Source: Campylobacteraceae bacterium (GTDB lineage: Bacteria > Campylobacterota > Campylobacteria > Campylobacterales > Arcobacteraceae). Taken from it: 64,000 bases of DNA. Below, one piece after another: positions 8,225 to 33,704 of the stretch. Location: contig JABSOM010000004.1 in assembly GCA_013215945.1 (NCBI GenBank), positions 62,001 through 126,000 on the forward strand, read 5' to 3'. Positions within the stretch are counted from its first letter, which is position 1, and each line of letters begins with the position of its first letter. The notes beneath the pieces are model-generated. The model ran no database searches. It was not told where the DNA came from and saw nothing but the letters and a program-made list of their open reading frames with translations. Made by a program: the position numbers and the translations under genes.

Positions 8225-8235
8225 GTTCTAAAACA

Positions 8236-9531
8236 ATGAACAGTGATCAAAGTATATATAAACAGTTTTATACAAAACTGATTTTAGCTACCTCACTGTT
8301 CATTGCTATTTTATCCCTACTCTTTTATGGATATACGAAATCCACTATTTACGAAAGCATCCAAAACTCTTTATTAAATGATGCAAAACTCATTGTAAAA
8401 ACAAGTAAAAACTCTAAAATTGATATCAATAACTTTTTACTAATACGTAGTTCTGGTGTTACAATTGATTTGATTCAAATTAAAAACTTAGATAGGGTTA
8501 CTTACAGTAGATTCTCTAATGGGCAGGATTATTTTGCGCAGATTTTATATCCCCTTGATTTAAAAAACAAACATTTTATTAAAATTACAAAAAATATTAA
8601 TTCTTATATGCATATGTTAAATCAAATATTCCAAAATTTATTATTTATTTCTTTATTTGGATTATTTTTGGTCGTTTTTTATGCAGTTACAGTATCTAAG
8701 ACTTTGTTAAAACCTATTCTATTAATCAATGACAAACTTTCAAAAATGAATGAAAATTATATGACTCAAATTGATAAAAAATCCTTACCAAAAGAGTTTC
8801 ATCCTTTGGCTGATTCTATTAATGGTTTAACCAATAAAATTCAAACCTTTGTAAAATTTAAAAAAGAGTTGTTCATAGGTGCGGCCCATGAATTAAAAAC
8901 ACCCTTAGCTGTTATGAAATTAAAAAATGAAGTTACTTTGATAAAAGACAGAGATATATCAAGATATAAAGAAACGCTTCAATTATCAATTAAACAAATC
9001 AATGATATGAACTCCATGATTAGCTCAATTTTAGATATTGGAAGACAAGAAGGTGCACAGTTTGAAAAACCTATTGAATTAAACTTGGTTGAGTTTTTGC
9101 AAAGAAAAACCAATGATTATAGAATGTTAAGTTCACAAAAAAATATTACTATTACGTTTTATGCCAATGTTAATAAATATATTACCCTAATCCAACCCAC
9201 CTTATTAATTCAAATTATACAAAATTTTGTACAAAACGCAATTAAATTCACGCAAGATGATGGTTCCATCTCAATACGCTTAGAAAAAAGAAAAGATACA
9301 ATAGAAATATCAATTACAGATAATGGAAGTGGTATTGATGAGAGCATAGATTTATTTGCTCCTTTTAAAAGAGTAGGTACTCAAAGTGGTGCTGGGCTTG
9401 GATTATTTTTAGCAAAAAGTGCAGCAGATGCGCTGGGAGCTCAAATATATTTAAAAAACAGAACAGATACACAAGAAGGAACAATAGCTACATTAACGCT
9501 ATTGGTTAATCCTCGTTGCGATTTATTCTAG
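8236..9531 (+). CDS. membrane sensor histidine kinase partnered with the HsrA-like regulator
   Basis: Sensor kinase of 431 residues. Two membrane segments (about 14-34 and 133-154) flank a roughly 100-residue periplasmic sensor with no domain I recognise. A short HAMP-like linker follows, then HisKA with H218 in AAHELKTPL, and an HATPase domain with N box QNFVQNAIKFT, G1 box DNGSGID and G2 box GAGLGLFLAKSAA. It lies 11 bp after the regulator, so they are co-transcribed and presumably cognate. The signal is unknown. Confidence 0.9.
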   Translation: MNSDQSIYKQFYTKLILATSLFIAILSLLFYGYTKSTIYESIQNSLLNDAKLIVKTSKNSKIDINNFLLIRSSGVTIDLIQIKNLDRVTYSRFSNGQDYFAQILYPLDLKNKHFIKITKNINSYMHMLNQIFQNLLFISLFGLFLVVFYAVTVSKTLLKPILLINDKLSKMNENYMTQIDKKSLPKEFHPLADSINGLTNKIQTFVKFKKELFIGAAHELKTPLAVMKLKNEVTLIKDRDISRYKETLQLSIKQINDMNSMISSILDIGRQEGAQFEKPIELNLVEFLQRKTNDYRMLSSQKNITITFYANVNKYITLIQPTLLIQIIQNFVQNAIKFTQDDGSISIRLEKRKDTIEISITDNGSGIDESIDLFAPFKRVGTQSGAGLGLFLAKSAADALGAQIYLKNRTDTQEGTIATLTLLVNPRCDLF

Positions 9532-9534
9532 GTA

Positions 9535-9963
9535 TTATACTATTTTAGCGTGTTCAATTTTTGTACATTTATCTTGAACAATTTTAATAGAAGCATCATG
9601 TGCTCTTTGGCAAGCTTCATTATTAACAAGACCTAATTGTGTCCAAAGACAATCAATATCACCTCTTTTAATGGCCATATCTACAATAACATCAATTTCT
9701 TTTGCTTTTCTAAAAATATTAACCATATCTATTTTAAAAGGAATATCTGCTAACGATCTATAAACATCTTCCCCTAAGATTTGTTCTTCTTTTGGGTAAA
9801 CAGGCACGATTCTAAAGCCAACACTTTGCAAATATCTTGCAACTCTATTAGAATCTTTTTCCTCTTTAGGAGAACAACCAATTATAGCAATTGTTTTAGT
9901 ATTTTCAAAAATTCTATAAATCTCTGTTTCACTTGAGTTGATACTTGCTTCTTCATAATCCAT
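9535..9963 (-). CDS. CoA-binding (YccU-type Rossmann) protein
   Basis: Small cytosolic protein of 142 residues made almost entirely of a CoA_binding Rossmann domain: nucleotide-binding start KTIAIIGCSPKEEKDSNRVA at about 28-47, then VPVYPKE and a C-terminal DKCTKIEHAKI. It resembles E. coli YccU and the N-terminal part of acyl-CoA synthetase (NDP-forming) families but lacks any catalytic domain. Function is unknown. Convergent with the kinase gene, with 3 bp between the two stops. Confidence 0.8.
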   Translation of the reverse strand: MDYEEASINSSETEIYRIFENTKTIAIIGCSPKEEKDSNRVARYLQSVGFRIVPVYPKEEQILGEDVYRSLADIPFKIDMVNIFRKAKEIDVIVDMAIKRGDIDCLWTQLGLVNNEACQRAHDASIKIVQDKCTKIEHAKIV

Positions 9964-10024
9964 GTTAACTCCTTAATAATATCGGTAATTATTTATTATT
10001 ATACCTTTATTTTTGTCTTTTTAA

Positions 10025-11074
10025 CTAAGAGATTTTATCTAATTTATTTTGCAAGAATGCTCTTGTATCACTTAAATTAATGGATTCTCTGAAATCATCA
10101 AATTTACAACCAGAAGCATTTGGATGCCCTCCACCATTTGCTAGTTTAGTAGCAAGCATTGAAACATCTACTTTGCCATCCGCTCGTAAAGAAGTATTTC
10201 CTTTTCTTGAGATATCAATAAAAAAATCATAATCTGTATTGGCTTTCAAAAAAGCATTTGCAGGAATAGAAATACCCCCTAGTGTATAAGTGAAGATCCC
10301 TTTATGGCCTTTATAAGAAAGCGTTAAATCATCTTTAATAATATTTAAACAATGAACTAAATACTTAGATGATAAATTATCTATAGTGTCATTTTTAGCA
10401 TCTTGTTGTAAGTATTTTTTCTTTAAAAAATAAATCTTTTCATCCAAAACAATGGCTGCATTTTTTTCGTTAATTAATTTTCCCGCTTCTTTTAATAAAT
10501 AAATTCTAAAGTCTCTGTTTTCTTTTGCAAAAAGAATATTATTAATTTCTCGCACCTTAGAAATCATTGTTAAAAGTACTTTTCCAAATTCAAAATTATC
10601 TACTTCATCATCTAACCAAATATCAACAGCATTAATAGCAGCTACTAAAGGATCTAATATTTTTTTTTCATTTTCATCAAAAGCTTGAAATTTATCTTGC
10701 AAATATTCATAAACAATTTTAGTTGCACATCTTTTGGTATCTAAAAAATACCAGTCATATTTATCTGCGCTTTTTTGTCCTGTTCCATGATGATCTAAAA
10801 GCTGAAGTTCAATGTTTTTGCCTTCTTTATTTAAAGCAGATACTTCTTTATCTAAATCTTTAGCTTCCCCTGATGTTAAATTAACATCTGTAATCAAAAA
10901 AAGAACACTCTCGTTGTTTTCATTTTTAATTTCTTCTAAAACTTTTTTAATTGCCAATTTTACTTCCTGACCATAATTAGCATTTAAAAATGTTCCTGTT
11001 TTAAAATGTTCTTGCGTCAACATATGACAACCGTAACCATCTAAATCGGTATGCGAAATATGAAAAAGTTTCAT
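10025..11074 (-). CDS. DHH-family phosphoesterase
   Basis: Putative metal-dependent phosphodiesterase, 349 residues. Motif I is ISHTDLDGYGC (residues 6-16), a second Asp-containing segment is FLITDVN (about 59-65), and LLDHHGTGQ (about 93-101) is the DHH signature. The C-terminal DHHA1-like region has GGGHPNASGC near 313. The family includes oligonucleotide/pAp and cyclic-dinucleotide phosphodiesterases; the substrate here cannot be assigned. Its ATG overlaps the stop of the preceding Rrf2 gene by 4 bp, so expression is probably coupled to that regulator. Confidence 0.82.
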   Translation of the reverse strand: MKLFHISHTDLDGYGCHMLTQEHFKTGTFLNANYGQEVKLAIKKVLEEIKNENNESVLFLITDVNLTSGEAKDLDKEVSALNKEGKNIELQLLDHHGTGQKSADKYDWYFLDTKRCATKIVYEYLQDKFQAFDENEKKILDPLVAAINAVDIWLDDEVDNFEFGKVLLTMISKVREINNILFAKENRDFRIYLLKEAGKLINEKNAAIVLDEKIYFLKKKYLQQDAKNDTIDNLSSKYLVHCLNIIKDDLTLSYKGHKGIFTYTLGGISIPANAFLKANTDYDFFIDISRKGNTSLRADGKVDVSMLATKLANGGGHPNASGCKFDDFRESINLSDTRAFLQNKLDKIS

Positions 11075-11472
11075 GAAGTAAGATCTTTAAGCGTTAATTC
11101 TTCTAAGAAATTATTTACTTTACCTTGTAGGTTACTTAATAAAGGCCAGATAGTGCAAGTGCTTGCTATATCAGTGGGACAATCATGAATTGAGTGAGAA
11201 CACTCAAAAACAGAAGGAATTCGCTCTTCTGCAGCAGTAGTAATCTCTAAAATAGTTAATTCATCGTGTGCTCTTGCTAAAATAAAACCACCGTTAACAC
11301 CTCTTTGAGAAATAACGATTTTATTTTTGGCTAAGTTTTGCATTATTTTTGCTAAAAAAGACTTAGGGATATTGAGCTCTTTTGATAATTCATCTACATT
11401 CTTTGCTTTATCACTTTTAGTAATAGAAACTAAAGAAAGAAGTGCATACTCACTTTTTTTGGTTAATAACAT
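11071..11472 (-). CDS. Rrf2-family transcriptional regulator with three conserved cysteines
   Basis: Winged-helix regulator, 133 residues. The N-terminal helix-turn-helix includes ELSKELNIPKSFLAKIMQNL (29-48) and wing QRGVNGGFILA (56-66). C91, C98 and C106 in a C-x6-C-x7-C arrangement match the Fe-S-cluster ligands of IscR/NsrR-type members, so an iron-sulfur or nitric-oxide/redox sensor is likely. It is the first gene of a two-gene operon with the DHH phosphoesterase. The specific regulator class is not decided. Confidence 0.85.
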   Translation of the reverse strand: MLLTKKSEYALLSLVSITKSDKAKNVDELSKELNIPKSFLAKIMQNLAKNKIVISQRGVNGGFILARAHDELTILEITTAAEERIPSVFECSHSIHDCPTDIASTCTIWPLLSNLQGKVNNFLEELTLKDLTS

Positions 11473-11678
11473 TTTGGTCCTAATTTATATTCTTAAATTT
11501 ATAACATTATAGCGAAACTCAATCAAATTACATAAGTAAACAATATCTAAGGCCATACATGATAAAAACTTGATAACAGAGATATCTTTGATAGGAATAA
11601 CAAAAGAGACTAGAAGGGTACATTAAAGACTAAAGGCTTAGGCCTAAAAAAATCGACTTTCTTCAGGCTTAAGTATAA

Positions 11679-12488
11679 CTAAACAATAGCAATCCATATT
11701 TCTGTTCTTAAATCTTGATCTTTTACATCAGCTACAGTATATTCTTCAATAGGAGCTTCATTTCTTAGTTCTATATTGTTTTCTTTAATCCACGACCCAT
11801 ATATTGATATATACGTAGTAGCTAAACTTTTATAAGAACCTTTATGAAGAAATTTTGCATACTTTCCTCCCCCAATTGTTAAAATCTTAATATCATTTTT
11901 AAGAGCTACATCCTTATTTTTTTGTATACAAGCATCGTATCTTAGTTTATTTATTTCTACAAAATCTGGATCATCGTAGGTAATGCCAAAACATCTAGTA
12001 TCATCATCTAAGACTTTATTACTAACACCAAAATATACCAATTTTTCCCAAGCAGAATCACATTTCATGTAATCCCCAAGGTGACGTAAAGAATATACTT
12101 CAAACTCGTTTATCTTTTCAATTTTGATAGGTTCAATCATTTTAATATCCTGTAAGAATCTATTCGATTCTTTAATATAAGCACTAGGAGAACATGAAAA
12201 CATATTTTTAAAAGCTTTGTTAAAAGACGAAGCGGTATTAAAGCCAGAATTCATTGCAATAGAAGTAATACTTCCTTGTTTTAATTGTAACTTCATTACA
12301 GCTTCCTGCATTCTAAGGCGTTTAATGTATTTTTTAATACTCTCTCCTGTACATCCCAAAAAAATACGATGAAAATGAAAATATGAATATCCAGAAATCT
12401 TTATCAAGTCTTCGATTTCAACATATTCCAAATTTTCTTCAATTTCATTTAACACTTTAAACATAGTCTCTTTATATGTATTTTTCAA
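11679..12488 (-). CDS. AraC-family regulator with GyrI-like effector domain
   Basis: Transcription factor of 269 residues. The AraC double helix-turn-helix is at about 8-107, with EDLIKISGYSYFHFHRIF and the second motif ITSIAMNSGFNTASSFNKAFK. A GyrI-like small-molecule-binding domain is at about 113-269. This Rob/BmrR-type pairing commonly controls drug efflux. It is the 3'-most unit of an efflux locus on the same strand. A 17-bp motif just upstream (12536-12552) recurs in front of the RND operon and of the outer-membrane protein gene, making this protein the obvious candidate for the factor that binds it. Confidence 0.86.
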   Translation of the reverse strand: MKNTYKETMFKVLNEIEENLEYVEIEDLIKISGYSYFHFHRIFLGCTGESIKKYIKRLRMQEAVMKLQLKQGSITSIAMNSGFNTASSFNKAFKNMFSCSPSAYIKESNRFLQDIKMIEPIKIEKINEFEVYSLRHLGDYMKCDSAWEKLVYFGVSNKVLDDDTRCFGITYDDPDFVEINKLRYDACIQKNKDVALKNDIKILTIGGGKYAKFLHKGSYKSLATTYISIYGSWIKENNIELRNEAPIEEYTVADVKDQDLRTEIWIAIV

Positions 12489-12535
12489 TTTCTCTCCTAA
12501 AACTTGATAAATTATAACAAGATAGAAAAATTAAA

Positions 12536-12552
12536 ACTTTTCCAAACTTGCT
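12536..12552 (-). promoter_or_regulatory. copy 1 of shared efflux-locus motif (upstream of AraC gene)
   Basis: Plus-strand sequence ACTTTTCCAAACTTGCT, 48 bp before the AraC-family start. Matches ACTTTTCCAAANNTGCT, also found at 18655-18671 and 19769-19785. Probable operator or activator site. Confidence 0.6.
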
Positions 12553-12582
12553 TTGTTTTAAACATTTTTACGACTATTCTTT

Positions 12583-13755
12583 TTATTCATTATAAGGCTT
12601 TAGTTTTTTATATATTTTGTTTATGATGAGCTTTTTATCTATTGTCAAAATTTTAATTTTCAAGGTATTGATTTTGATAGTATTCAACATTCTATTTACA
12701 TCGTCTACTGTTTTTAAAGAATAGTGATGCATTTCTTTCACTGTTAAAAAAATATTTTCATATTTTCTTAAGATCTTCACACTATTTTTTATTTTGTTAT
12801 TTATTAATTTTATATCTTCTTTGATATATTTATAAAAAAGAATTTCATCTTTTTTTCTTTCTGCTAATTTTTTACCAGCCAATTTAAAAGAGATATTTTT
12901 TACAGCACGTTCTTTTTTACTATTATAATCAAAAGGAATATTAAGTTTTAAACCATAAGAATAAAAAGTATCATTTTTTTCTCTTTCCATATTTTCATAA
13001 CCATAAGTAGCATAGGCTGATATTTTTGGCAAAAATAAAGATGCTGTTATTTCACGATCTAAACCATTTTTTTCGTAGCTTAAAACATCTACTTTAATAT
13101 TAATATTGTTATTCATAAAAATATCAAATGAAACCATTCTGTTTTGACTTACGTCTATATCTTTGTAATTTTCATTAGATATAGATGCAAGTTCTAATAA
13201 TAAGCTGTTTTTTTTAATTAATAAATCTTCTTTTTCATTCTTATGTTCTACTACTTCTATAATACTTTCATCCAAAACAAATAATTCCAATAAACCATTT
13301 TTGTACATATTTTCTTGTTTAAGTATATCTATGTTTTTATTAGAAATAAAATATTCTACTTTTTCTATTTGTAAATCAATTTTACTTAAATTTAATACCA
13401 TTTCATAAATATTTGATTCTAGGATTCTTCGATTTTTTATATATTCCAGAGTGCTTATTTTCTTAAGTATTTTGGCTTTATCTATTGTTTTAGTAATACC
13501 TCCACTTTTATAAATATCTTGTTCAATATTAATAAAAATTTTTTTATTTTTCATGCTTGCACTAGAATTTATATGTTTATTTTTTGATAAATCTACTTCA
13601 AATATCACAGGGTTTATCCAAGAATGTTCTAGTATATCTGCTTGATTTTGTTTGATTTTATTCTTATCGTTTAATATCTCAGTTTGTTGTGGGCTTAGTA
13701 TTTCTTGTGAAAAACAAACAACATTTATAAATAAAAAAAGTATTAATGTTCTCAT
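12583..13755 (-). CDS. TolC-like outer-membrane efflux channel, short and divergent
   Basis: 390 residues with a signal peptide (about 1-16, RTLILFLFINVVCFS). Long helical stretches rich in Lys, Ile and Asn, with two repeated helical halves as in TolC/OEP proteins, for example NRRILESNIYEMVLNLSKID and a second helical pair after SYGLKLNIPFDYNSKKE. Typical OEPs are 420-480 residues, so this one is short. It is the last gene of the RND operon, its start sharing one base with the adaptor stop. OEP family placement rests on architecture and context more than motifs. Confidence 0.72.
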   Translation of the reverse strand: MRTLILFLFINVVCFSQEILSPQQTEILNDKNKIKQNQADILEHSWINPVIFEVDLSKNKHINSSASMKNKKIFINIEQDIYKSGGITKTIDKAKILKKISTLEYIKNRRILESNIYEMVLNLSKIDLQIEKVEYFISNKNIDILKQENMYKNGLLELFVLDESIIEVVEHKNEKEDLLIKKNSLLLELASISNENYKDIDVSQNRMVSFDIFMNNNINIKVDVLSYEKNGLDREITASLFLPKISAYATYGYENMEREKNDTFYSYGLKLNIPFDYNSKKERAVKNISFKLAGKKLAERKKDEILFYKYIKEDIKLINNKIKNSVKILRKYENIFLTVKEMHHYSLKTVDDVNRMLNTIKINTLKIKILTIDKKLIINKIYKKLKPYNE

Positions 13756-14471
13756 TATTTGAACTCCACACTTACTACTTTTCCAAAAGTAGTCTTTTTA
13801 TTACTTTTTTTGTATAAAATAATTTTATGTGTAGAAACTCTTATTTCATCTTTTAATCTAGAAATATGAAAAACCTTATACAGCGATTTTTCTCCATTGA
13901 TAAAAATATTTTTTTCCTTTATGTTGTTTAAAGCCTTAAAACTTAGATACAAAACAATTCTTTCTTTTTTTAGGTCATAGGTTTCATATAATAAATCTCC
14001 TTGTGAAACATAAGATCCTTTTTCAAAATAAATTTTACTTAAATAGGTGTTTTCTAAATAAAAATGTTTTTTTTCTTTAGTTCTTATTTCTATTTCCATT
14101 TCTTTTTCTAAAGTATTTAATTCCTGTAAACTTTCAAAAAAAGCTAGTTTTTCGTTGTTTTTATCATAAATACTGATTTGTTTAATTTTGGATTTTTTTA
14201 TATATTTGTCTTTTTTTATTTCTACAATATTCTTTTGTGTTTTTAAACGTTGTTCTAAAAATTTAATATTTATATTTTGATCTTTATCGTTTATTTTTAA
14301 TATTAATTCCTGCTCTTGAATATTTGAAAATATTTTTTTATCTTGCACATATTCAACCACTCCACTTATTTGAGACCTTACTTCAATTTTTTTATACGCT
14401 TCAATTTTTCCCATATAAATGTTAGCATTACAATACATAACAATAAGTATTAGGCAAAGTATTTTTTTCAT
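13755..14471 (-). CDS. small RND periplasmic adaptor (membrane fusion protein)
   Basis: Exported protein of 238 residues with a signal peptide (about 1-17). The start KIEAYKKIEVRSQISGVVEYV is the classic lipoyl-domain entry of adaptors. A central coiled-coil hairpin runs from about 75 to 135, and the second lipoyl half is ENTYLSKIYFEKGSYVSQGDLLYE. The usual beta-barrel and membrane-proximal domains are strongly reduced: adaptors normally have 350-400 residues. One base is shared with both the upstream RND and downstream TolC-like genes. Role inferred from context plus the lipoyl motif. Confidence 0.78.
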   Translation of the reverse strand: MKKILCLILIVMYCNANIYMGKIEAYKKIEVRSQISGVVEYVQDKKIFSNIQEQELILKINDKDQNINIKFLEQRLKTQKNIVEIKKDKYIKKSKIKQISIYDKNNEKLAFFESLQELNTLEKEMEIEIRTKEKKHFYLENTYLSKIYFEKGSYVSQGDLLYETYDLKKERIVLYLSFKALNNIKEKNIFINGEKSLYKVFHISRLKDEIRVSTHKIILYKKSNKKTTFGKVVSVEFK

Positions 14472-17400
14472 TATTTTTCCTTTTTTATTTTAAATACCAA
14501 AACAAAAAATGTTGGCAAAAAAACCAGTGTTAAAACAGTTCCCCATAAGAGCCCAAAACCAAGAGAAACCGCAATAGGTTGTAATACTTTGGCCTGTCCA
14601 CTTGCAAAAAAGATTAAAGAAATCAAACCTAAGAAAGTAGTAATAGAAGTAATTAAAATGGGTCGTAACCTTAATTTAGCTCTTGTTATGACCTCTTCAA
14701 CTGTTGTACTATGTCGTACAAACTCTAACATCACAATAGCATCGTTTACAACAACACCAGCCAAACCAAGAAGCCCAATTATAGAAGTTAGGGATAAATT
14801 TAAATCAAGTATTAAATGTCCAAAAAGGGAGCCTAAAAAAGAAAAAGGGATTAATGCTAAAATCATAAAACTGAGTCTAAAAGAATTAAAAAGTAATAAC
14901 AAGGTAAAAAATATTAAAAGTAACGCTAGTAAAAAAGCCATACTCATTTCTTCTAACATTCTGTCATTTTGTTCTTTTTCCCCCTCTAGCATAATTTTCA
15001 CACCAAGTTTTTTATATTTATCCAAAGTAGTGTTCAATAAATCAAGCGTTTCTATTGCTGTTATGATTTTATTATTTACATTTGCACTTATTGTTTTTAC
15101 TTCGTATTGGTTTATTTTCTCTATAAACTCAAAGGTATTCTTAAATTCAAAATCGCAGATATCACTTAGAAATATTTTTTTATTTGTATTTGGAATATTT
15201 AGTTCATACGCAATCAACATATTTATATCGTCTTTATTTTCATCATAACTTATAAGATCAAAAATACCTTCTTTGTTTAAGCCCTTATTTTGTACAGACT
15301 TTGAAAAAGAGGGTCTTAAACTATTGAATAATATTTCTTCATTGAACCCCAAACTCTCGCCATAAGAGTTCAATTTTAATTTTAATTCTTTTGTTCCAAG
15401 TTTTGTATTGTTGTTTACAGAACCTACACCTTTTATTTCTTTTAGTTTTTGCTCAATTTCTTTACTTGCTTGATTTAAAAGTTTCTCATTTTTAGAACTT
15501 AATAAGATTTCTATATCATTATCAGTAATACCTGTTTCCGCTTTTGACATTGTAAGTGTTTTTAAAGCATCAGTTTTATGCTCTTTAAAAAGGTTCTTTA
15601 TTTTTTCAATAATTTCTTCATCACTCAAAACTCTTATTTTTTTTCTATCATCTTTGTTTAATGCCAAAAAAGGAGATATATATTCTTCCATAAAATTTTC
15701 AGGTTTTTTGTCATATAGTTCTAATTGAAAGTTAAAAAATGATTCTTTTAAGGTAAAATCATCTTCACTTACTTTATATCCAACCCCATAAGAAATTGTT
15801 TTTATAAACAATTCATTTTTATGCTTTAATAAAATTTCTTCAAATATTTTACTTTTTTCAAATGTTTCATTTACTTTGGTATTCTTTTTAAAACTGCCAT
15901 CTATATTGATTTCATTAGAGTCAAATTCTGGCAGTAAATTATATTTCATGCTACTTGCTAAAAATATTGTTAGAAGAGGAATAAGGACTATAAATAATAA
16001 TAGAAAAGTTTTTTTGTAATCAATGATTTTATGTAAAAAACTTGAATAAAAGTTTAGTGCTTTACTCCAATCTAATTCTTTATCTTCTTTTTTCAAAATA
16101 TGCAAAGCATGTATGGGCAAAAATATATAACTTTCTATTAAAGAAGCAATCATTAGAATAACAACAGATACAGGAATCAATATTAAAAATTGACCCAATT
16201 CATTTGTCAATACCATCATAGGCAAAAAAGCAAAAACAGTTGTTAAAGAGGAAGCCAAAACAGGAAGCATTACTTCTTTGCAGGCCTCTTTTGTAGCTTG
16301 CAATTTATTTTCACCTAAAACAATATGTCTTTGTATATTTTCAGCAATAATAATTGCATCATCCACTAATATTCCTAGTATTAATAAAACACCAATCAAG
16401 GTAATCATATTAATACTATACGAAGTAAAAGACAAAAATACCAATGCAAACAAAATAGCAGTAGGTATTCCTAAAACAACAATAAAAGCAACTCTTTTAT
16501 TTATTAAAATATATAAAGCCAAAGAAACCAAAATCAAACCAAACAAAATCCCTGAGACAATAGTATTAAGCCTATTTTTTATTAATACAGAAGAATCTTC
16601 AATAATTGATATATTAATGTTTTGATGCTTTTGATTTAAGTTATTTACATAGTTTCTGACTTCTTTTGCTAAAATTATTGCATCTGCTTTATTATTCTTA
16701 TACATAGCCAATTGCACATTTGATTTACCATTTACTTTTGAAATAACTTTCTCTTCATTACGTTTATATTCAACTCTGGATATATCTTTTAGATATATTG
16801 TTTTATCATCAATTTTTAATAAGGTATTTAAATAAGCCTCAACACTTTTTTTTCCATTTATATTGGATAAAAAATAACTCTCTTTTTCATCATCAATCTG
16901 GCCAATAGGAAATATATTAGACAAGCGTTTTATTTCTTCAAATAAAATATTTTTATCAAGATTATAGAGTTCTATTTTTCTATTATCAAAAATAACTTCA
17001 AATACTTTTTTCGTATCTTCAAAAAGTATTATTTCTGAAACATTATTTAACAATAAGAGTTTATTTTTAATTTCATCTGCAAAAGTAATTAATTTATCTT
17101 TAGATACTGAATTAGAAGAAAAAATAACATTTAGCAAAGGTGCTTTCCAATCTGTTGTATAAGCACTTGGTTCCTTCATATCTGAGGGCAAATCAGATTT
17201 TGCATTAGAAATAATATTTTTCGTTTTGTCTAAAACTTTAGCTTCATTTGAGTATTCCTCCAAAGTCAAAACAATTGTAAAACTTCCTTGTGAAATATAA
17301 GATTCAATTTTTTGAATTCCGTCTAAGGCTTTTAATTCGTTTTCAAGGGGAATTACAGCCATCTTATTTAAAGCATCGTTACTAATATTTGTATAGAAAC

Positions 17401-17548
17401 CACTTACAATAATTTTATCAATTTTAATAATAGGAAACACATCTTTGGCTATTTTTCCATAGGCAAAAAAACCTGCAAGAATTAAAATTAGAAACAGCGA
17501 ATAATTTAGTTTTGTCCGTTTTAAAAAAAAATCTACTATTCTTATCAC
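14471..17548 (-). CDS. RND-family inner-membrane efflux transporter
   Basis: Proton-driven pump of 1025 residues with the AcrB-type layout: TM1 (about 15-33), large periplasmic loop, TM2-6 (about 328-490), a cytoplasmic linker, TM7 (about 515), a second loop, and TM8-12 at the C terminus. The proton-relay pair D396/D397 is present in LGILVDDAIIIAEN, and the TM10 region reads GVVVNDAIVMLEF. Start ATGs and stops overlap with both neighbours. Substrate is unknown; the sequence looks closer to the uncharacterised RND branch than to AcrB itself. It may export a lipid-like or toxic compound given the exported partner genes upstream. Confidence 0.93.
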   Translation of the reverse strand: MIRIVDFFLKRTKLNYSLFLILILAGFFAYGKIAKDVFPIIKIDKIIVSGFYTNISNDALNKMAVIPLENELKALDGIQKIESYISQGSFTIVLTLEEYSNEAKVLDKTKNIISNAKSDLPSDMKEPSAYTTDWKAPLLNVIFSSNSVSKDKLITFADEIKNKLLLLNNVSEIILFEDTKKVFEVIFDNRKIELYNLDKNILFEEIKRLSNIFPIGQIDDEKESYFLSNINGKKSVEAYLNTLLKIDDKTIYLKDISRVEYKRNEEKVISKVNGKSNVQLAMYKNNKADAIILAKEVRNYVNNLNQKHQNINISIIEDSSVLIKNRLNTIVSGILFGLILVSLALYILINKRVAFIVVLGIPTAILFALVFLSFTSYSINMITLIGVLLILGILVDDAIIIAENIQRHIVLGENKLQATKEACKEVMLPVLASSLTTVFAFLPMMVLTNELGQFLILIPVSVVILMIASLIESYIFLPIHALHILKKEDKELDWSKALNFYSSFLHKIIDYKKTFLLLFIVLIPLLTIFLASSMKYNLLPEFDSNEINIDGSFKKNTKVNETFEKSKIFEEILLKHKNELFIKTISYGVGYKVSEDDFTLKESFFNFQLELYDKKPENFMEEYISPFLALNKDDRKKIRVLSDEEIIEKIKNLFKEHKTDALKTLTMSKAETGITDNDIEILLSSKNEKLLNQASKEIEQKLKEIKGVGSVNNNTKLGTKELKLKLNSYGESLGFNEEILFNSLRPSFSKSVQNKGLNKEGIFDLISYDENKDDINMLIAYELNIPNTNKKIFLSDICDFEFKNTFEFIEKINQYEVKTISANVNNKIITAIETLDLLNTTLDKYKKLGVKIMLEGEKEQNDRMLEEMSMAFLLALLLIFFTLLLLFNSFRLSFMILALIPFSFLGSLFGHLILDLNLSLTSIIGLLGLAGVVVNDAIVMLEFVRHSTTVEEVITRAKLRLRPILITSITTFLGLISLIFFASGQAKVLQPIAVSLGFGLLWGTVLTLVFLPTFFVLVFKIKKEK

Positions 17549-18177
17549 TTATACTCCTCTTTTTTAAGCAGAGAAGCTTGAAAAAAATCATTTTCAAAAT
17601 AAATTAAAACTGCATTTTTAGTATAAACTCTAAGCTCTTTTTCTTTTCTGCTGTTTAATACTTCAAAAGTATAACTTTTGTTATTCTTATTTTTTAAGGT
17701 GTAATGTACTTGCAGTTTTTTTGCTTCAAAAGCATCGTAGGTTTTTATTGTAAATGATTTTTTACCTATATTTCTCGCTAAAAACTCTTTGTTAATTTTA
17801 AAAGCAGATACATCAATACCTTTAATATCTAATATTGTCTCATTTGAATATACAAGGTGATTACCTTTTTTTAAAGCTTTTATTTTTTTTATCTTTCCAT
17901 CATCATTTTCCATAATCTCAAAAGATACTAATTCCTTATTCTTATAAAAAGATTTTTCGATATAAGTATAAAAATAAGTAAAAAAGACAGAAGAAATGTT
18001 AATAGTCATCTTTGTAATCAACTCATTTTCTTTCTCCACTATTGTCATTTTTCCAATTATTTTTCCTTCACTTTGTAATATGTATTCTAAATATTGTTTA
18101 TCTTTAGCTTCGATATGTGTAAAGAAAATAAGTACAAGAAGCAGGTGTTTAAGGCCATATATAGTTTTACACTTCAT
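17545..18177 (-). CDS. exported beta-rich protein of RND operon (DUF3108/DUF6134-like)
   Basis: 210 residues with an N-terminal signal sequence (about 9-24). The mature part is mostly predicted beta-strands; the opening LEYILQSEGKIIGKMTIVEK has the 'YxVxxxGxxIG' feel of DUF3108/DUF6134 periplasmic proteins, a resemblance by eye only. No cysteine pair, lipobox or catalytic motif. The stop overlaps the RND start by 4 bp and its start overlaps the previous gene by 11 bp, so it is an integral part of the operon. A lipid- or substrate-delivery role is possible but inferred. Confidence 0.7.
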   Translation of the reverse strand: MKCKTIYGLKHLLLVLIFFTHIEAKDKQYLEYILQSEGKIIGKMTIVEKENELITKMTINISSVFFTYFYTYIEKSFYKNKELVSFEIMENDDGKIKKIKALKKGNHLVYSNETILDIKGIDVSAFKINKEFLARNIGKKSFTIKTYDAFEAKKLQVHYTLKNKNNKSYTFEVLNSRKEKELRVYTKNAVLIYFENDFFQASLLKKEEYK

Positions 18178-18574
18178 TCTTTATCCAGTTAATTATTAAT
18201 TCTTCATAACCATCAACAAAAGCATCAGTTCCTAATATATTTGGTTTAAATAAAAACCATAAATCATACTTTGTATTTTTGAAATATTTATTTTTGAGCA
18301 TTGCGTGTTGGCTTTTATCAAAAACTTTTAGTGAAAAATTATTAAGATTTATAAGTTCTTTTTTTAATACGCGAATACTTTCATTGATATCTATATTCTC
18401 ATCATCGCTTGCAAATATGCTTAATAAGTTTTTATTTAAAGGCAATATTAATTTACCCTCTATTTTTTCACTCTTGTGAACAAAGTTCAAGTTTCTTATC
18501 TCATAATTGTTTTCTTCTAGTAGTGAGATAAAAATTACAGAGATGAAAATGAATATAATAATTTTGATTTTCAA
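18167..18574 (-). CDS. small exported protein resembling an alpha/beta hydrolase with its core missing
   Basis: 135 residues with an N-terminal signal/anchor (about 3-19). Residues 25-47 (NYEIRNLNFVHKSEKIEGKL) look like the first strands of exported alpha/beta hydrolases. Immediately after comes LLSIFASDDENIDINES (about 51-67), resembling the late strand that carries the catalytic Asp in such enzymes, then LKVFDKSQHAML with a possible catalytic His and a final helix DGYEELIINWIKNEV. The central sheet with the GxSxG nucleophile is absent. It leads the RND operon. It is either an internally deleted, decayed hydrolase or a small protein built from that fold. Confidence 0.6.
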   Translation of the reverse strand: MKIKIIIFIFISVIFISLLEENNYEIRNLNFVHKSEKIEGKLILPLNKNLLSIFASDDENIDINESIRVLKKELINLNNFSLKVFDKSQHAMLKNKYFKNTKYDLWFLFKPNILGTDAFVDGYEELIINWIKNEV

Positions 18575-18653
18575 TTTTATCCTTTAATTAATGTTAATAC
18601 TTTTTTATGTGGGAAATATGTGTTTGATGATTGTATGAAAAAATAACGTTAAA

Positions 18654-18671
18654 TACTTTTCCAAAACTGCT
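18654..18671 (-). promoter_or_regulatory. copy 2 of shared efflux-locus motif (upstream of RND operon)
   Basis: Plus-strand ACTTTTCCAAAACTGCT at 18655-18671, about 80 bp before the first gene of the RND operon. Flanks also match copy 3: CGTTAAAT on the left and ATTAAA on the right. Probable regulatory site. Confidence 0.65.
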
Positions 18672-18744
18672 ATTAAAGTAATATAATAAAAGAAGTAAAT
18701 TAAAAATAGTACAGACCTGCACTATTTTTAAAGAATATTTTTGT

Positions 18745-19683
18745 TTAAAAAGTATAAGCAAGAGAGATAAGAAGAATATCCGTATTACTTTGAAAAAAAG
18801 CTATGTTTGAGTTTCGTGTGTTGCTAATATAGTCTGTATGGAATACTAGGTTTTTATAATTCAAAAAATTGCTTTTAGTATAATTAATTTTTAATGAAAA
18901 AACCTTTTCATCTCTTTCCTTATTAAAATAAGAATTTTTTTTATCATAGGTATAGACTTCATAGATATTTTCTAATGCTATTCTATGAGTATTTAAAAAA
19001 TTTATTTCCATTTCATATTTTAAACCTACTTTTTTATAATCATTACTATTGCCATCAAATATCCCATTTCCTAAAATAAAACCCATAGCACCAAAAGAGT
19101 TTTGATTAAATTGTAATAAGGTGGCCATTACATTTACTTCATTACTATAACCACTTTGTTTCTCACTTTTATTTACTTCATCATTTATGTTTATCTTTTT
19201 AAAATGATACGTTAAATCTAGAAAATTATATATTCCTTTTTTCCCTAAACTTAGTTCTATAAGCTTTGCATTCTTACTTTTTCTTTTAATATTCAGAGAA
19301 TAAGGATTGATATAAACATCTTCAAGCTTGTAATCAAGACTATAAAACATATTATTTTCAAAAGACTGTTTTATACCTAAACCCTTGCTTGTTATATAAA
19401 CTGCATTATCTTTAGTCCAAGAATAACCTATACTTTGTTCGTTAATATTTCCATTTAAATAAAAATCGCCATATTCTAAGTTGAGTAAGGGAAAAATGAT
19501 ATTTTCATCAATTTTTTTGGCTTTTTTATTTAAAGTACTTATTTTGTCATTGTCTTTCGTACTATAAAAATTATCGCGTATACTTACCTTGCCAAGACTA
19601 AGACCTAGGCTTCCACTTACTTCATTTTGAGCAAACAATATATTTGTACATAATACTAAAGCAAAGATACTTTTCTTAATCAT
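18745..19683 (-). CDS. outer-membrane beta-barrel protein, DUF2860-like
   Basis: 312 residues with a signal peptide (about 1-18, cleavage near LFAQ) and a C-terminal strand ending LISLAYTF, an outer-membrane barrel signature. Alternating strands fill the protein. The late segments THRIALENIYEVYTYDKKN, FNKERDEKVFSL and the final NTDILLISLAYTF resemble DUF2860 proteins of Vibrio and Shewanella; this is recall, not a search. It forms its own unit upstream of the RND operon and carries the same upstream motif, so co-regulation with the pump is likely. Function unknown. Confidence 0.72.
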   Translation of the reverse strand: MIKKSIFALVLCTNILFAQNEVSGSLGLSLGKVSIRDNFYSTKDNDKISTLNKKAKKIDENIIFPLLNLEYGDFYLNGNINEQSIGYSWTKDNAVYITSKGLGIKQSFENNMFYSLDYKLEDVYINPYSLNIKRKSKNAKLIELSLGKKGIYNFLDLTYHFKKININDEVNKSEKQSGYSNEVNVMATLLQFNQNSFGAMGFILGNGIFDGNSNDYKKVGLKYEMEINFLNTHRIALENIYEVYTYDKKNSYFNKERDEKVFSLKINYTKSNFLNYKNLVFHTDYISNTRNSNIAFFQSNTDILLISLAYTF

Positions 19684-19768
19684 TATTAATCCTTTTGTAA
19701 TATATTAAGCAAACAAAAACATGCCTGCTGGATATTGAAAATAAGTCTATAATAAAATACGTTTAAAT

Positions 19769-19785
19769 ACTTTTCCAAAATTGCT
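19769..19785 (-). promoter_or_regulatory. copy 3 of shared efflux-locus motif (upstream of DUF2860-like gene)
   Basis: Plus-strand ACTTTTCCAAAATTGCT, about 85 bp before the start of the outer-membrane gene. It is flanked by inverted TTTAAATA-like arms (GTTTAAAT and ATTTAAA), and the full 30-bp context is close to copy 2. Confidence 0.65.
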
Positions 19786-19936
19786 ATTTAAATGAATTAT
19801 ATTAGCGATGTAATTTATTCATATAAAAAGTTTGTTTAATAAGATTCTTTATTCTGTGAGCTTAGATGCAGTGATTTAGAATACGGGATGGTGTAGTATG
19901 AGTTTGCTAGGGAATAAACAGATTTTATTTTTGGCA

Positions 19937-19972
19937 AAAAAAAAGCTTACAAGTTAACTTGTAAGCTTTTTT
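19937..19972. terminator. rho-independent terminator after rpsO
   Basis: Long perfect inverted repeat: A-run, AGCTTACAAGTT / AACTTGTAAGCT, T-run, centred on GTTAAC at 19953-19958. It lies just downstream of rpsO on the minus strand. Confidence 0.85.
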
Positions 19973-19987
19973 ATAAACTAAATAAAA

Positions 19988-20260
19988 TTATTTAGCTCTG
20001 ATTCCTAAATCAGCAACCAGTGCTAAGAATTTAGTATAATCAGTTTTTCTTAAATACTTAAGAAGTCTTTTTCTTTTTCCAACCATTTTTAATAGACCTA
20101 ATCTTGAAGAGTGATCTTTTTTATTGATTTTTAAATGTTCAGTTAATACTGCAACTTGTTTAGTTAAAACTGCAATTTGTACTTCACTTGAACCTGTATC
20201 TTTTTCATTTCTTTGATGCTTAACAATTATACTTGTTTTTACGTCCTTATCTAAAGCCAT
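19988..20260 (-). CDS. rpsO: 30S ribosomal protein S15
   Basis: Small-subunit protein that binds 16S rRNA early in assembly. 90 residues, the usual size. Signatures include the N-terminal [17 protein letters not shown] region, the [23 protein letters not shown] core and the C-terminal LGIRAK. It starts at ATG 20260 after AGGAGG (RBS). Monocistronic, with its own terminator. Confidence 0.97.
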
Positions 20261-20287
20261 AATGACCTCCTAATAGGTATATAATCT

Positions 20288-20302
20288 CACTAAATTTTAG
20301 TG
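20288..20302. other. short palindrome in the rpsO leader
   Basis: CACTAAA-T-TTTAGTG, a perfect 7-bp stem with a single-base centre, in the presumed 5' leader of rpsO, 28 bp before its ATG. It could be a leader hairpin; rpsO is autoregulated through leader structure in other bacteria, but this link is inference. Confidence 0.35.
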
Positions 20303-20342
20303 GAGCGATATTATATCTAAGACAACTTAAATTCTGTTTAAA

Positions 20343-21323
20343 TCATCCTCCCGTTTCGTAAAAAGCTCTTGATGAAACTTCATTGTCATTTCCATCATTC
20401 CAATTGTTTTTTTCTGGTTTATTTGCAAGAACATCTTTTAAAATAGCAGCCGCTTTTTTAATATCTTTGTTTTGAATCGCTTCTTTGATACTTTGAGATT
20501 GTTCAAAAAACAAACAAGGAATTAATACACCACTTGCAGTTAAGCGTATTCTATTACAAGAGTCACAGAAATCACTTTTATGTGGTTCAATAATCCCAAA
20601 GACATAACCATCATCCAAGGCATATCCTTGAGAAGGAGAAGGTCCAGTTCGTGGAACCAGCGTAAAAGAGTATTTTTTCGCAATTATGTCTTGTATTGTT
20701 TGTGAATTTAAACCTTTTGCACCTGTATGGGCATGTTTATTTTCCATAAATTCAATAAAACGAACCTCAAAACCATTTTCTTTACAAAAATCTAAAATAT
20801 CTATGAGTTCTGTTTCATTGTAGCCCCTCATAGGAACACAATTTATTTTAATCTTAAACCCCAAGTCTTTTGCTTTTTGTATTCCTGCTAATACTGTTTT
20901 TAATACATCTTTTTGTGCTATTTTAGCCGCAACATCTGGTTTTAAAGAGTCAAGTGAAATATTGATTCTTTTTAATCCAGCATCTTTTAAGGCTTGTGCC
21001 GCACGTGGTAATAAAAAACCATTGGTAGTTAAAGCCAAATCAATACTGGGATCATAATCATAAATCATTTTTAAAAAAGTATCTAAACCCGTTCTTAAAA
21101 GAGGTTCTCCTCCCGTAATCCGAACTTTTTTTATTCCTTCATCAATTCCGACTTTAATAAACTCAAATAATTCTTCATAGGAAAGTAAGTTTTCTTTAGG
21201 AACCCATGAAAATGGTTTTTCGGGCATACAGTATTGACATCTAAAATTACAGCGCTCTGTAACTGAAACTCTTAAATAATCTACTTTTCTACCATGTCCA
21301 TCTATTAACATCATATTCTCCAT
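20343..21323 (-). CDS. moaA: GTP 3',8-cyclase (molybdenum cofactor biosynthesis protein A)
   Basis: Radical-SAM enzyme converting GTP to the precursor of cyclic pyranopterin monophosphate for molybdenum cofactor, required by NapA encoded nearby. 326 residues. N-terminal radical-SAM cluster CNFRCQYC at about 25-32, GGEPLLR at about 71-77, second cluster [18 protein letters not shown] at about 250-267, and the C-terminal Gly-Gly (YETGG). The ATG at 21323 is used; an in-frame ATG three codons later (21314) is also possible. It is transcribed away from the divergent cobA gene. Confidence 0.95.
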
Positions 21324-21563
21324 ATTCTTTGTATCTTAAGCATATTATAAATTTGCTTAATTAATTTTTATTTTGGTCAATAATTTTTGACTTAATTCTT
21401 TATTTACTATATTTGTTTCATTATAACCATTAAGATTTTTTTATATCTTGATTAAGAGCAATGTTTATTTTTACCCAATAACTTTTTTGTTTACTTTTTA
21501 AACATTTTAGCAAAAACTATGTATAAAAAATAGGCTATAATACAAAAAAACATAGGATGTACA

Positions 21564-22289
21564 ATGGTATATTTAACAGGAGCAGGTCCTGGGGATATTG
21601 ATTTATTAACAGTTAAAGCTTTAAAAATAGTAAAAAAAGCGGATATTATTATTTATGACAGATTGGTAAATATTGAACTATTAGAATATGCAAAAAAAGA
21701 TGTAGTATTAGTATATGTTGGAAAAGAAAAAGACAATCATAAAGTTCCTCAAGATGAAATCAATGAAATCATCTATCAAGCGTCTTTAAAATATGAACAT
21801 GTTGTAAGATTAAAAGGTGGAGATCCTTTTGTATTTGGAAGAGGGGCGGAAGAAGCCTTGTATTTAGTACAAAGAAATCAAAAATTTGAAATAATACCAG
21901 GTATTACCTCAGCTATTTCAGTTCCAGCTTATGCAGGAATTCCGGTAACACATAGAGGAATCACCCCTTCGTTTAGAGTAGTAACAGGGCATACTAAAAG
22001 TTCAAATGATGTTGCCAATATTAATTGGTCTTCTTTTGTTGAAAATGAAACCATTGTTTTTTTAATGGGTTTACACAATATTCAACTTATTGTAAATAAA
22101 TTGCTTGACATAGGAAAACCACCTTCTTATCCCTGTGCTATTATTACAGATGGAACAACTTCTAAACAGCAAGTTTTAGTAGGCACGCTGGAAACAATTG
22201 TACAGCTGTCAAAAAAAGCAAAAAGTCCTTCTATTATAATAGTAGGAGAAGTAGTTAATTTAAGAAAAGAACTTAATTGGTTTAAATAA
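21564..22289 (+). CDS. cobA: uroporphyrinogen-III C-methyltransferase
   Basis: SAM-dependent methylation of uroporphyrinogen III at C2 and C7 to give precorrin-2, towards siroheme, heme d1 or cobalamin. 241 residues, stand-alone SUMT size. VYLTGAGPGDIDLLTVKAL (2-20) is the classic N-terminal signature, followed by IIYDRLVN, VRLKGGDPFVFGRGAEE (about 83-99), PGITSAISVPAYAGIPVTHRG and VTGH. With the precorrin-2 dehydrogenase-like gene at 22913 it can form most of a siroheme pathway. Convergent with the Crp-like gene, with a 6-bp gap. Confidence 0.94.
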   Translation: MVYLTGAGPGDIDLLTVKALKIVKKADIIIYDRLVNIELLEYAKKDVVLVYVGKEKDNHKVPQDEINEIIYQASLKYEHVVRLKGGDPFVFGRGAEEALYLVQRNQKFEIIPGITSAISVPAYAGIPVTHRGITPSFRVVTGHTKSSNDVANINWSSFVENETIVFLMGLHNIQLIVNKLLDIGKPPSYPCAIITDGTTSKQQVLVGTLETIVQLSKKAKSPSIIIVGEVVNLRKELNWFK

Positions 22290-22295
22290 ACCTAT

Positions 22296-22922
22296 TTACA
22301 TATAATAGGTTTTTAAGATCTCAATATTCATTGTTTTTTTACTAATATTAATTAAATTGCTGTCTTTAAATACTTTTAAGGTACGAGATAAGGTTTCTGG
22401 TGTCATATTCAACGTTTGAGCAATCAATACGTTTTTTGTTGTAAAAAAATCTTGTTTATTATCTACTATATACTTAGCAACTTTTTGTTTTGTATCTAAA
22501 ATTAAGTTCATAAAAATAATATTCTGCAAGTTCTTAATTTTAGTTATTAAAGAAGATTGAATTCTCATAACAATGTCCACATTAGATAACATTATTTTTT
22601 TAAATGCTTCAAAATCAATTTTTAAAACATCTGCTTGTGTCATTGCTTCAGTAGTAGCAGGAAAAGTCATATTCTCAAAGTTTGCAAATTCACCTATCAT
22701 TTGATCTTCATGAAAATATTTAAGAACCAACTCTTTATCACTAGAAGTTACTTTATATAATTTAATAGTTCCTTTAAGAACTATATGCAAATACTTAGGT
22801 TCATCTCCTTCATAAAAAAGAATATTTCCTTTGTTTAATTTCTCAATACGTGAAATGTTTTCTATGGATTTGATAGTCTCTTTGCTTAAACCTTCAAATA
22901 AAAAAATATTTTTTAATTCCAT
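22296..22922 (-). CDS. Crp/Fnr-family regulator without cysteines
   Basis: 208 residues: cyclic-nucleotide-binding-like barrel at about 6-115 (EGDEPKYLHIVLKGTIKLYKV, MIGEFANFENMTFPATTEA) and a winged-helix domain with recognition region MTPETLSRTLKVFKDSNLI at about 173-191. There is not one cysteine in the protein, so it cannot carry the FNR [4Fe-4S] cluster; it resembles the NssR/Dnr type that senses NO or heme-bound ligands. It overlaps the siroheme gene by 10 bp and lies 2 kb from the nap operon, whose promoter carries a perfect FNR-type palindrome. Confidence 0.85.
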   Translation of the reverse strand: MELKNIFLFEGLSKETIKSIENISRIEKLNKGNILFYEGDEPKYLHIVLKGTIKLYKVTSSDKELVLKYFHEDQMIGEFANFENMTFPATTEAMTQADVLKIDFEAFKKIMLSNVDIVMRIQSSLITKIKNLQNIIFMNLILDTKQKVAKYIVDNKQDFFTTKNVLIAQTLNMTPETLSRTLKVFKDSNLINISKKTMNIEILKTYYM

Positions 22923-23476
22923 GATTTTAAATACTCCTTAACTTTTTCTTCAAAATAATTCATTCTTTCTTTTCCTTTTGGCATCGAAGTTCTTAAGTTT
23001 TTCATTTCTTTTAAGAACTCTGTTATATTTGAAGGGATTTTATTTCTTATATATACTTTTAGAGCTTTTGCTAAAGCAGGAGAGCTACCTGAAGTAGAAA
23101 TTGCGATAACTAAGTCCTCTTTTTTAACATAAGAGGGGAAAATAAAATCACAATACTTTGCAAAATCTACACAATTACATAAACAAGAAGTATTACGTGT
23201 TTCTTCATAAATACTTTTTTGAACATCAAAATCATCAACTGCTACAATTATGATGTCATAGTTTTTATAATCCCCTACTTCATATTTGTTTTTTTTATAA
23301 GGCAAATCATATTCTTTAATTTTATTCTTCATATCATCATTTAATAATGGAGATATAATATCAATATCTTTTGTAAAATCAAGAAGTTTTTCCAGCTTTT
23401 CATAAGCAATATACCCACCGCCTATTAACAAAATATTTTTATTGTCTAAAGAATAAAACATAGGAAAATAAGACAT
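22913..23476 (-). CDS. precorrin-2 dehydrogenase / sirohydrochlorin ferrochelatase-like protein
   Basis: 187 residues, like the N-terminal half of CysG or yeast Met8p. NAD-binding Rossmann NILLIGGGYIAYEKLEKLLDF at about 14-34, IIVAVDDF in the middle, LVIAISTSGSSPALAKALKVYIR at about 121-143. Catalyses precorrin-2 oxidation and perhaps iron insertion towards siroheme. Start at ATG 23476, one base from the stop of the TrpD2-like gene; the end overlaps the regulator start. The likely order of transcription is TrpD2-like, this gene, Crp-like. Confidence 0.88.
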   Translation of the reverse strand: MSYFPMFYSLDNKNILLIGGGYIAYEKLEKLLDFTKDIDIISPLLNDDMKNKIKEYDLPYKKNKYEVGDYKNYDIIIVAVDDFDVQKSIYEETRNTSCLCNCVDFAKYCDFIFPSYVKKEDLVIAISTSGSSPALAKALKVYIRNKIPSNITEFLKEMKNLRTSMPKGKERMNYFEEKVKEYLKSWN

Positions 23477-23477
23477 G

Positions 23478-24398
23478 TTATTTCTTTAAAAGCATATAGC
23501 CATCTTTAATAGAATCAACTCTATTTGTTGCATACAATAAAATAGCTGCATTTAAATAAGCCAAATTCATTAAGTCCTCACTTGGATTCTTTAATTCTTT
23601 TAACATATCATCAAGTGTAATCGCTTTATATTCCGTCTCATAGCTAATTCCAAAGTCTTCTAATAAAACTTTTTCTTCAACAATTTCCCCGTCTTTTTCC
23701 AACCAATACTTAAAGTTAGAGAATACTTCAGGATTACCTTCATTGCCTTTTAATACCAATAATTTTTCATAATTATCTTTAAACAACATATTGTATTTTC
23801 TTACATAAGGTTTATGAAAAGCAGAAGTAAGTGCATACTTTGAATTGGCTGGATTAAACAATTTTTCTACGGTATTAAAAACAGAACGCATAAAGAGTTT
23901 TTTTCGTAAAGGAGTAAGTGCTGATAACTCTTTAAAATAGTCTTTTCTATCAAAAAAATGAACATTGTCTTCTAAAGTGATTTTTTCTATTAGTTCTTTA
24001 ACCGTAATACCAATATTTGAAGGTTGGGGTTCATCTCCTGAAATAATTAAATCAAAACTTTTATATTCTTTGTTATTGACAAAGAAGTTTTTTAATATTT
24101 TTGAGTATAGAGGGAATAAATAGCTTTGTTTCTTTTTACCATCAAAAGAAAAACCTATTTCAATTGATTCTGGAATATTGTCTTTTTTGATATACGTATT
24201 ACATGCTTGCAAACATCCTTTTAATTCGTCATCACTTTCTAACTTTACTCGCAAACACATTAGAAAAGCAGCACTTTGCTCAGGCTCACATTTTTGGTCT
24301 AAGATCATCTTAATAGCTTCAAAACACTCTTCTTTTTCTAAATCTCTGTTGGATTTAGGTCCTGTTGCTACGGCTTTTAAATATTTAAAAAAACTCAT
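23478..24398 (-). CDS. glycosyltransferase family 3 / TrpD2-like (YbiB-type) protein
   Basis: 306 residues related to anthranilate phosphoribosyltransferase. The helical N-terminal domain has LKAVATGPKSNRDLEKEECFEA and QKCEPEQSAAFLMCLRVK. The catalytic domain departs from TrpD: the usual GTGGD diphosphate loop is replaced by SFDGKKKQSYLFP, as in TrpD2/YbiB proteins, some of which bind nucleic acids rather than anthranilate. So true TrpD activity is unlikely. It is divergent from napA, with the shared 190-bp spacer containing the FNR-type site, and heads the siroheme/Crp operon. Role in nitrate respiration is unproven. Confidence 0.78.
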   Translation of the reverse strand: MSFFKYLKAVATGPKSNRDLEKEECFEAIKMILDQKCEPEQSAAFLMCLRVKLESDDELKGCLQACNTYIKKDNIPESIEIGFSFDGKKKQSYLFPLYSKILKNFFVNNKEYKSFDLIISGDEPQPSNIGITVKELIEKITLEDNVHFFDRKDYFKELSALTPLRKKLFMRSVFNTVEKLFNPANSKYALTSAFHKPYVRKYNMLFKDNYEKLLVLKGNEGNPEVFSNFKYWLEKDGEIVEEKVLLEDFGISYETEYKAITLDDMLKELKNPSEDLMNLAYLNAAILLYATNRVDSIKDGYMLLKK

Positions 24399-24520
24399 CT
24401 TCTTCCCTCTTATATTTTAAATATTTTATCATAATTAAGATTTTTCTATTGATTAAAAAACAGACAATCGAGGAAAATAATGAAATAGGACAAAAATAGT
24501 CTTAATTGAATCTTAAGAAA

Positions 24521-24536
24521 ATTGATTACAATCAAT
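24521..24536. promoter_or_regulatory. perfect FNR/Crp-type palindrome upstream of napA
   Basis: ATTGATTACAATCAAT, a 16-bp perfect palindrome containing TTGAT-N4-ATCAA, 55 bp before the chosen napA ATG. It is the canonical half-site of FNR-family regulators and lies in the divergent spacer with the TrpD2-like gene. The Crp/Fnr-type protein at 22296-22922 is a nearby candidate. Confidence 0.8.
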
Positions 24537-24591
24537 ATTTATGTTACAATTTAGTGATAGAATTTTTAGTATAGAACCAAAAGGAGATAGT

Positions 24592-27387: not shown

Positions 27388-27389
27388 AA

Positions 27390-31018: not shown

Positions 31019-31027
31019 AGGAATAAA

Positions 31028-33607: not shown

Positions 33608-33635
33608 TTTCAGCTCACTTCTAGGTATATATTAT

Positions 33636-33673: not shown

Positions 33674-33704
33674 TGTAACATAAAATATTGGAGGAGACAA
33701 ATTT

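Follow-up and report, generated by a model that had tools for sequence, protein, structure and literature searches.

An 8.4-kb DNA island in the genome of an Arcobacteraceae bacterium probably represents a horizontally gained, self-regulated efflux unit. The island spans positions 11551–19921 (8.37 kb, no strand assigned) of the window, the 64,000-nt stretch of DNA that was analyzed and whose numbering is used unless another locus is named, and comprises seven genes in three transcription units and nothing else. It is flanked by the gene of an Rrf2-type regulator (11071–11472) on one side and by rpsO (19988–20260) on the other. A contig of a congener (G001, contig C34, locus L185) matches the window at 95% over 6865–11550 and at 93% over 19922–35220, and only ~26 bp separate the two matching blocks; the segment 11551–19921 is thus extra relative to this empty site, where the Rrf2 gene directly follows rpsO at a distance of ~180 bp. 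Its GC content is 24.8% versus 30.0% in the flanks. Presence in this genome, absence from a close relative with preserved flanks and deviating composition together identify the segment as a genomic island. Comparison of the two island ends revealed no common repeat of at least 10 bp that could represent a target-site duplication or a terminal inverted repeat, the ORF list includes no integrase or recombinase within the island, and a plasmid search returned no near-identical copies of it. Since the three congeners have neither an RND protein more than ~38% identical to that of the module nor a DUF6134 protein, gain is favored over loss, and we infer that the island was gained here rather than lost elsewhere, a deletion in G001 being formally possible. 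The first-pass annotation of this DNA had reported six ORFs, all of which are confirmed, on the minus strand, by the ORF list; the extent of the island (~11551–19921), the gene of its AraC-family regulator and the promoter motif shared by its transcription units lie beyond that annotation. Further along the window, positions 24541–31018 hold a run of plus-strand genes with the opposite GC skew, which is nap (periplasmic nitrate reductase)-like by gene sizes and order.

The island carries its own regulator gene (11679–12488, minus strand, with a TTG start after AGGAGA), which encodes an AraC-family protein with a GyrI-like ligand-binding domain. The protein matches the Pfam profiles HTH_18 (69.9 bits) and GyrI-like (111.6 bits), and its nearest NCBIfam model is RobA, with a score far under the cut-off. 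Each of the three transcription units is preceded by a copy of a 19-bp motif, likewise on the minus strand. Copy 1 (GCAATTTTGGAAAAGTATT, 19766–19784) lies 5′ of the DUF2860 gene, copy 2 (GCAGTTTTGGAAAAGTATT, 18652–18670) 5′ of the five-gene pump operon, and copy 3 (GCAAGTTTGGAAAAGTTTT, 12533–12551) 5′ of the AraC gene itself. The block TTTTGGAAAAGTATTTAA is identical in copies 1 and 2 and has no other exact match in the genome; copy 3 differs slightly from both. The pattern GCARNTTTGGAAAAGTWTT, which copy 3 matches perfectly, occurs exactly three times without mismatch in the 3.24-Mb genome, each time in the island and once per transcription unit; as the motif was defined from these same three copies, this number is no independent test and expresses exclusiveness rather than a p-value. 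The reversed motif, used as a control, has no matches genome-wide. Moreover, −10-like hexamers (TAGACT, TACAAT and TATAAT) start exactly 16 nt past the motif at the three sites, the hexamer of copy 2 being TACAAT, at the same offset as that of copy 3. The AraC protein is the candidate binder, because it is the sole regulator in the island and one of the sites lies at its own promoter. It would bind the 19-bp motif and activate transcription, and regulation appears to be local to the island. A marbox was also considered as the identity of the motif and was rejected: the fit to the E. coli consensus, at 9–10 of 13 positions, is no better than chance, and marbox-like sites with at least 10 of 13 matching positions number 1003 in the window versus 1116–1185 in shuffled sequences.

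The pump operon lies entirely on the minus strand and reads 135-aa ORF, DUF6134, RND, adaptor, OEP, with successive overlaps of 11, 4, 1 and 1 nt. These five genes look like one operon, in agreement with the earlier proposal that overlapping genes mark a single transcript; the DUF2860 gene is probably outside this transcript, since the next gene is 170 nt away and a separate copy of the motif precedes each of the two. The RND permease (14471–17548, 1025 aa) is a full-length match to ACR_tran over residues 4–1018 (PF00873, 439 bits). Downstream of its gene lie those of a short periplasmic adaptor of 238 aa (13755–14471) and a short outer-membrane factor of the TolC/OEP family with 390 aa (12583–13755; PF02321, 38.7 bits, cut-off 22). 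Judging from sequence and gene order, the three proteins would form a tripartite pump. The permease retains the Asp pair in TM4 (D407 D408) and the Arg in TM11 (R971) of the AcrB proton relay. The position of AcrB K940 in TM10 is taken by Asn, then Asp, in the RND of the window and in all close family members, so that the details of proton coupling may not be those of AcrB. Against the HpnN model, which describes lipid/hopanoid RND exporters, the permease scores just 10.5 bits (cut-off 751.85).

Similar trios are widespread in the family. Among the best 29 family RND loci, the adaptor gene lies directly 3′ of the RND gene in 18, and 17 of the 29 also have the OEP gene, which keeps its position 3′ of the adaptor in relatives; the remaining loci are solo RNDs or are cut by contig ends. 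Where family loci could be read fully, adaptors are 232–241 aa and OEPs 383–399 aa long. The RND of the module is 52–56% identical to those of its four closest genomes, which belong to other genera, and mostly 38–40% identical to those elsewhere in the family. Adaptor and OEP had been described as much smaller than usual, which is true in comparison with AcrA and TolC and does not apply within the family; because the compact trio is so common there (17/29), small size is a lineage trait rather than a sign of special function. The proposal of a separate envelope export system holds in part: an atypical, self-contained envelope module is present, but its small components are usual for the family.

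The adaptor itself is only weakly recognized by profiles, with HlyD_3 at 20.9 bits against a Pfam cut-off of 22.2 and otherwise weak HlyD matches. NCBIfam models miss the adaptor type as such, their scores falling short of the cut-off, and Pfam recognizes it only marginally. Its layout consists of a signal peptide, a half-lipoyl segment, a helical hairpin (residues 46–140), a second half-lipoyl segment and a short beta part. Lipoyl halves around a hairpin, together with the adjoining transporter gene, place it in the MFP/HlyD group. A structure prediction of the adaptor had been suggested as a check. In the resulting model, which derives from a two-sequence alignment and has an overall mean pLDDT of 59 with a low-confidence C-terminus, the hairpin (46–94/101–140) is confidently predicted, with block mean pLDDT values of 77–95 over residues 61–130. 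The best fold matches in the PDB are the MacA and AcrA adaptors (best E 0.005), which is no more than supportive, since only the hairpin is confident in the model. Both alignment and model leave only ~70 residues after the second lipoyl half, and thus the adaptor apparently has no room for the membrane-proximal domain expected of RND adaptors. This domain goes with adaptors of transporters that have large periplasmic domains (PMC4446572). A search of IMG/VR with the adaptor as query returned no relatives. In the pump encoded on an Arcobacter cloacae plasmid (L115, NZ_CP053834.1, 134809–149826), the short adaptor is annotated as ‘hypothetical protein’. A stand-alone adaptor-like protein of 235 aa, 24–27% identical to the RND-linked one, is found in at least three Arcobacteraceae genomes, that of the window included (L035, 7234–7941; L036, 7253–7960; L039, 6966–7673); its gene adjoins flagellar-type genes (FlhA- and FlgL-like by eye), with no transporter gene next door. 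Another member of the order (G043; L034, 7334–8041) has an adaptor 34% identical to that of the window, the gene of which adjoins an ispG-like gene (by eye), with no RND gene nearby.

The first two genes of the operon are far more restricted in distribution. One of them (17545–18177) encodes a 210-aa exported protein with a signal peptide, which had been annotated as DUF3108/6134-like. The DUF6134 half of this label stands (PF19630, 37.3 bits, cut-off 27.9, residues 36–112), and Pfam gives no match to DUF3108. No DUF6134 homologues were found in 104 family genomes or, by profile search, in 397 phylum genomes; relatives were likewise absent from GTDB contigs, IMG/VR and plasmids, and from nine other genomes in a search run without a positive control. 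Structure prediction from the single sequence gave a pLDDT of 40 and no usable fold. The literature search returned nothing on DUF6134, nor on DUF3108 together with RND. The other gene (18167–18574, TTG start) is a 135-aa ORF with a hydrophobic N-terminus, for which a hydrolase origin had been proposed. Its best Pfam match, to the C-terminal region of the hydrolase family Peptidase_S9, has E=0.02 and 14.8 bits, under the cut-off of 22.6, and the GxSxG motif is absent from the sequence, so the hydrolase label is unsupported; NCBIfam and PDB matches are also lacking. No full-length relatives were found, plasmids included, and the single, doubtful partial match (27% identity) lies inside a large ORF. 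These features would suit a decaying, non-functional island in which the 135-aa ORF, with its faint match to a hydrolase C-terminus, would be an enzyme with an internal deletion and the rest would be on its way out. We regard this as very improbable, since all other genes are full length relative to their relatives and free of stops and frameshifts, and the conserved TM4 and TM11 residues of the RND permease are kept. The idea of joint conservation of all six genes, for which the absence of the partners from RND loci elsewhere was to be the counter-evidence, divides by gene: adaptor and OEP accompany the RND gene in other genomes, DUF2860 does so in part, and the DUF6134 protein and the 135-aa ORF are, by these sequence searches, not conserved partners of the pump. 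That the latter two bind the substrate or modulate the pump are guesses.

The remaining gene (18745–19683, minus strand) encodes a 312-aa outer-membrane beta-barrel of the DUF2860 family (PF11059, 93.1 bits, residues 23–310), confirming the barrel that the first-pass annotation had placed near the pump. PF11059 is found in 19–20 of 104 family genomes. Of 16 independent DUF2860 loci, 6 have an RND gene no more than 7 kb away, namely those in the window, G110, G019, G036, G064/G074 and G080, as against 0.8 expected (P ~6e-5, with 5–13 RND genes per genome in the expectation and with kinship beyond collapsed pairs ignored), so the link exceeds chance. In G064/G074, DUF2860 directly follows an operon of OEP, 229-aa adaptor and RND, and in G080 it stands beside an AcrAB-type operon. 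The closest relative of the island barrel is a paralogue on contig C14 of the same genome (54% identical), and this second DUF2860 gene is also ~2 kb from another AraC/GyrI gene. By contrast, the island barrel is only 22–24% identical to those of G110, G105 and G019, where DUF2860 is found beside related RND genes, implying that the barrels were recruited separately. DUF2860 thus seems to have become associated with RND repeatedly, a pattern that speaks for a functional link and not for descent of one module. The plasmid search yielded no DUF2860, and in the literature search the family appeared only in a barrel database and in two papers that are, by title, antigen screens. The HefABC-ordered operon that precedes DUF2860 by 120 bp (L150, 1782–7746; L151, 1496–7460) encodes an OEP of 406 aa, an adaptor of 229 aa and an RND of 1008 aa, and is present twice in G064. 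In addition, a 7TMR-DISM histidine kinase and a response regulator are encoded near DUF2860 in ~12 of 19 family loci, whether or not RND is nearby (L077, L078, L081, L140, L141, L143, L145–L148 and L151 among them).

The place of the barrel bears on how the module as a whole is to be read. If DUF2860, the DUF6134 protein and the 135-aa ORF were chance passengers of the insertion, what remains would be an ordinary multidrug pump of a kind common in the family, and the two small genes indeed do not travel with it. We consider this unlikely, because DUF2860 and the pump operon have the motif in common and DUF2860 recurs near RND at the 6/16 loci, and the two small genes have open reading frames that overlap within the operon. 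Doubtful, too, is a system dedicated to exporting a lipid or lipid-like component of the envelope, with DUF6134 as a periplasmic carrier, the RND and short adaptor as the engine and DUF2860 as the receiver at the outer membrane. Such a reading could draw on the 4-nt overlap of the exported DUF6134 gene with the pump gene, which suggests translation together with the pump, on the promoter motif that the barrel shares with the pump operon, and on scores that some DUF2860 relatives also obtain against SlipAM, a family of surface-lipoprotein barrels. However, the DUF6134 protein is missing from all trio-bearing relatives and gave no usable structure, the RND belongs to ACR_tran and not to HpnN, and confinement to an accessory island in one lineage speaks against an envelope-building role. 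Nothing directly supports the initial suggestion of lipid rather than drug export; the attached GyrI-type AraC regulator fits an inducible small-molecule response better. A broader proposal, which we regard as rather unlikely, is that RND-driven export in Campylobacterota has a dedicated outer-membrane component in DUF2860, repeatedly and independently recruited beside pumps to give a four-part efflux architecture. Its pumps would mostly use short adaptors without the membrane-proximal domain, and would be under local regulators, AraC/GyrI here and the 7TMR-DISM kinase with its response regulator elsewhere.

Returning to the self-regulated efflux unit, its most likely function is inducible efflux of amphiphilic toxicants. 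The AraC/GyrI protein would sense a small amphiphilic molecule and, in its ligand-bound form, bind the 19-bp motif, located a short distance 5′ of the −10 element at the three promoters, switching on its own gene, the DUF2860 barrel and the operon from the 135-aa ORF through DUF6134, RND and adaptor to OEP. Powered by the proton gradient, the RND trimer would take up substrate from the periplasm or from the outer leaflet of the inner membrane, and the short hairpin adaptor would couple it to the short TolC-like channel, through which the substrate would exit the cell. The DUF2860 barrel may serve as a co-induced outer-membrane partner, and any part played by the DUF6134 protein and the 135-aa ORF is likewise conjectural. 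If this is right, an entire RND pump can be mobile as a single self-regulated unit of 8 kb that also brings a sensor, an operator set and an additional outer-membrane barrel, and the unexplained DUF2860 family gains a testable context, efflux. Furthermore, RND pumps of this family would commonly run with adaptors that seemingly lack the presumed RND-docking domain, which bears on tripartite assembly.

Among known systems, the closest to the island are other Arcobacteraceae trios, such as that of the Arcobacter cloacae plasmid pACLO (NZ_CP053834), which share its gene order, overlapping genes, adaptor and OEP sizes (232–241 and 383–399 aa) and the Asn at the AcrB K940 position, but are devoid of DUF6134, the 135-aa ORF and the AraC/GyrI gene. 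In the same family, AreABC, AreDEF and AreGHI of Aliarcobacter butzleri are characterized RND pumps, whose exported substrates are antibiotics, bile salts and biocides (PMC8300790). At the level of the RND fold class, the island pump is the same as AcrAB-TolC and MexAB-OprM. CmeDEF of Campylobacter jejuni and HefABC and HefDEF of Helicobacter pylori are, like the island pump, tripartite RND pumps of Campylobacterota, although their gene order is reversed relative to the island trio. The adaptors CmeE and HefB are also ~235–246 aa long. MacA/AcrA-type adaptors resemble that of the island in their hairpin and lipoyl parts, whereas no membrane-proximal domain is apparent in the latter. A reduced adaptor in an RND pump is also known from BesABC of Borrelia, in which BesA is cited as an odd case that has no hairpin (PMC4446572); the reduction is opposite in the island adaptor, where the hairpin is kept and the membrane-proximal domain seems to be missing. 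As in the MarA/SoxS/Rob regulons, an AraC regulator with the Rob-type arrangement (HTH first, GyrI-like second) is found beside efflux genes; unlike in those regulons, the island site fits the marbox no better than chance. Overall, the module is an unusual variant of a known tripartite pump rather than a new export system.
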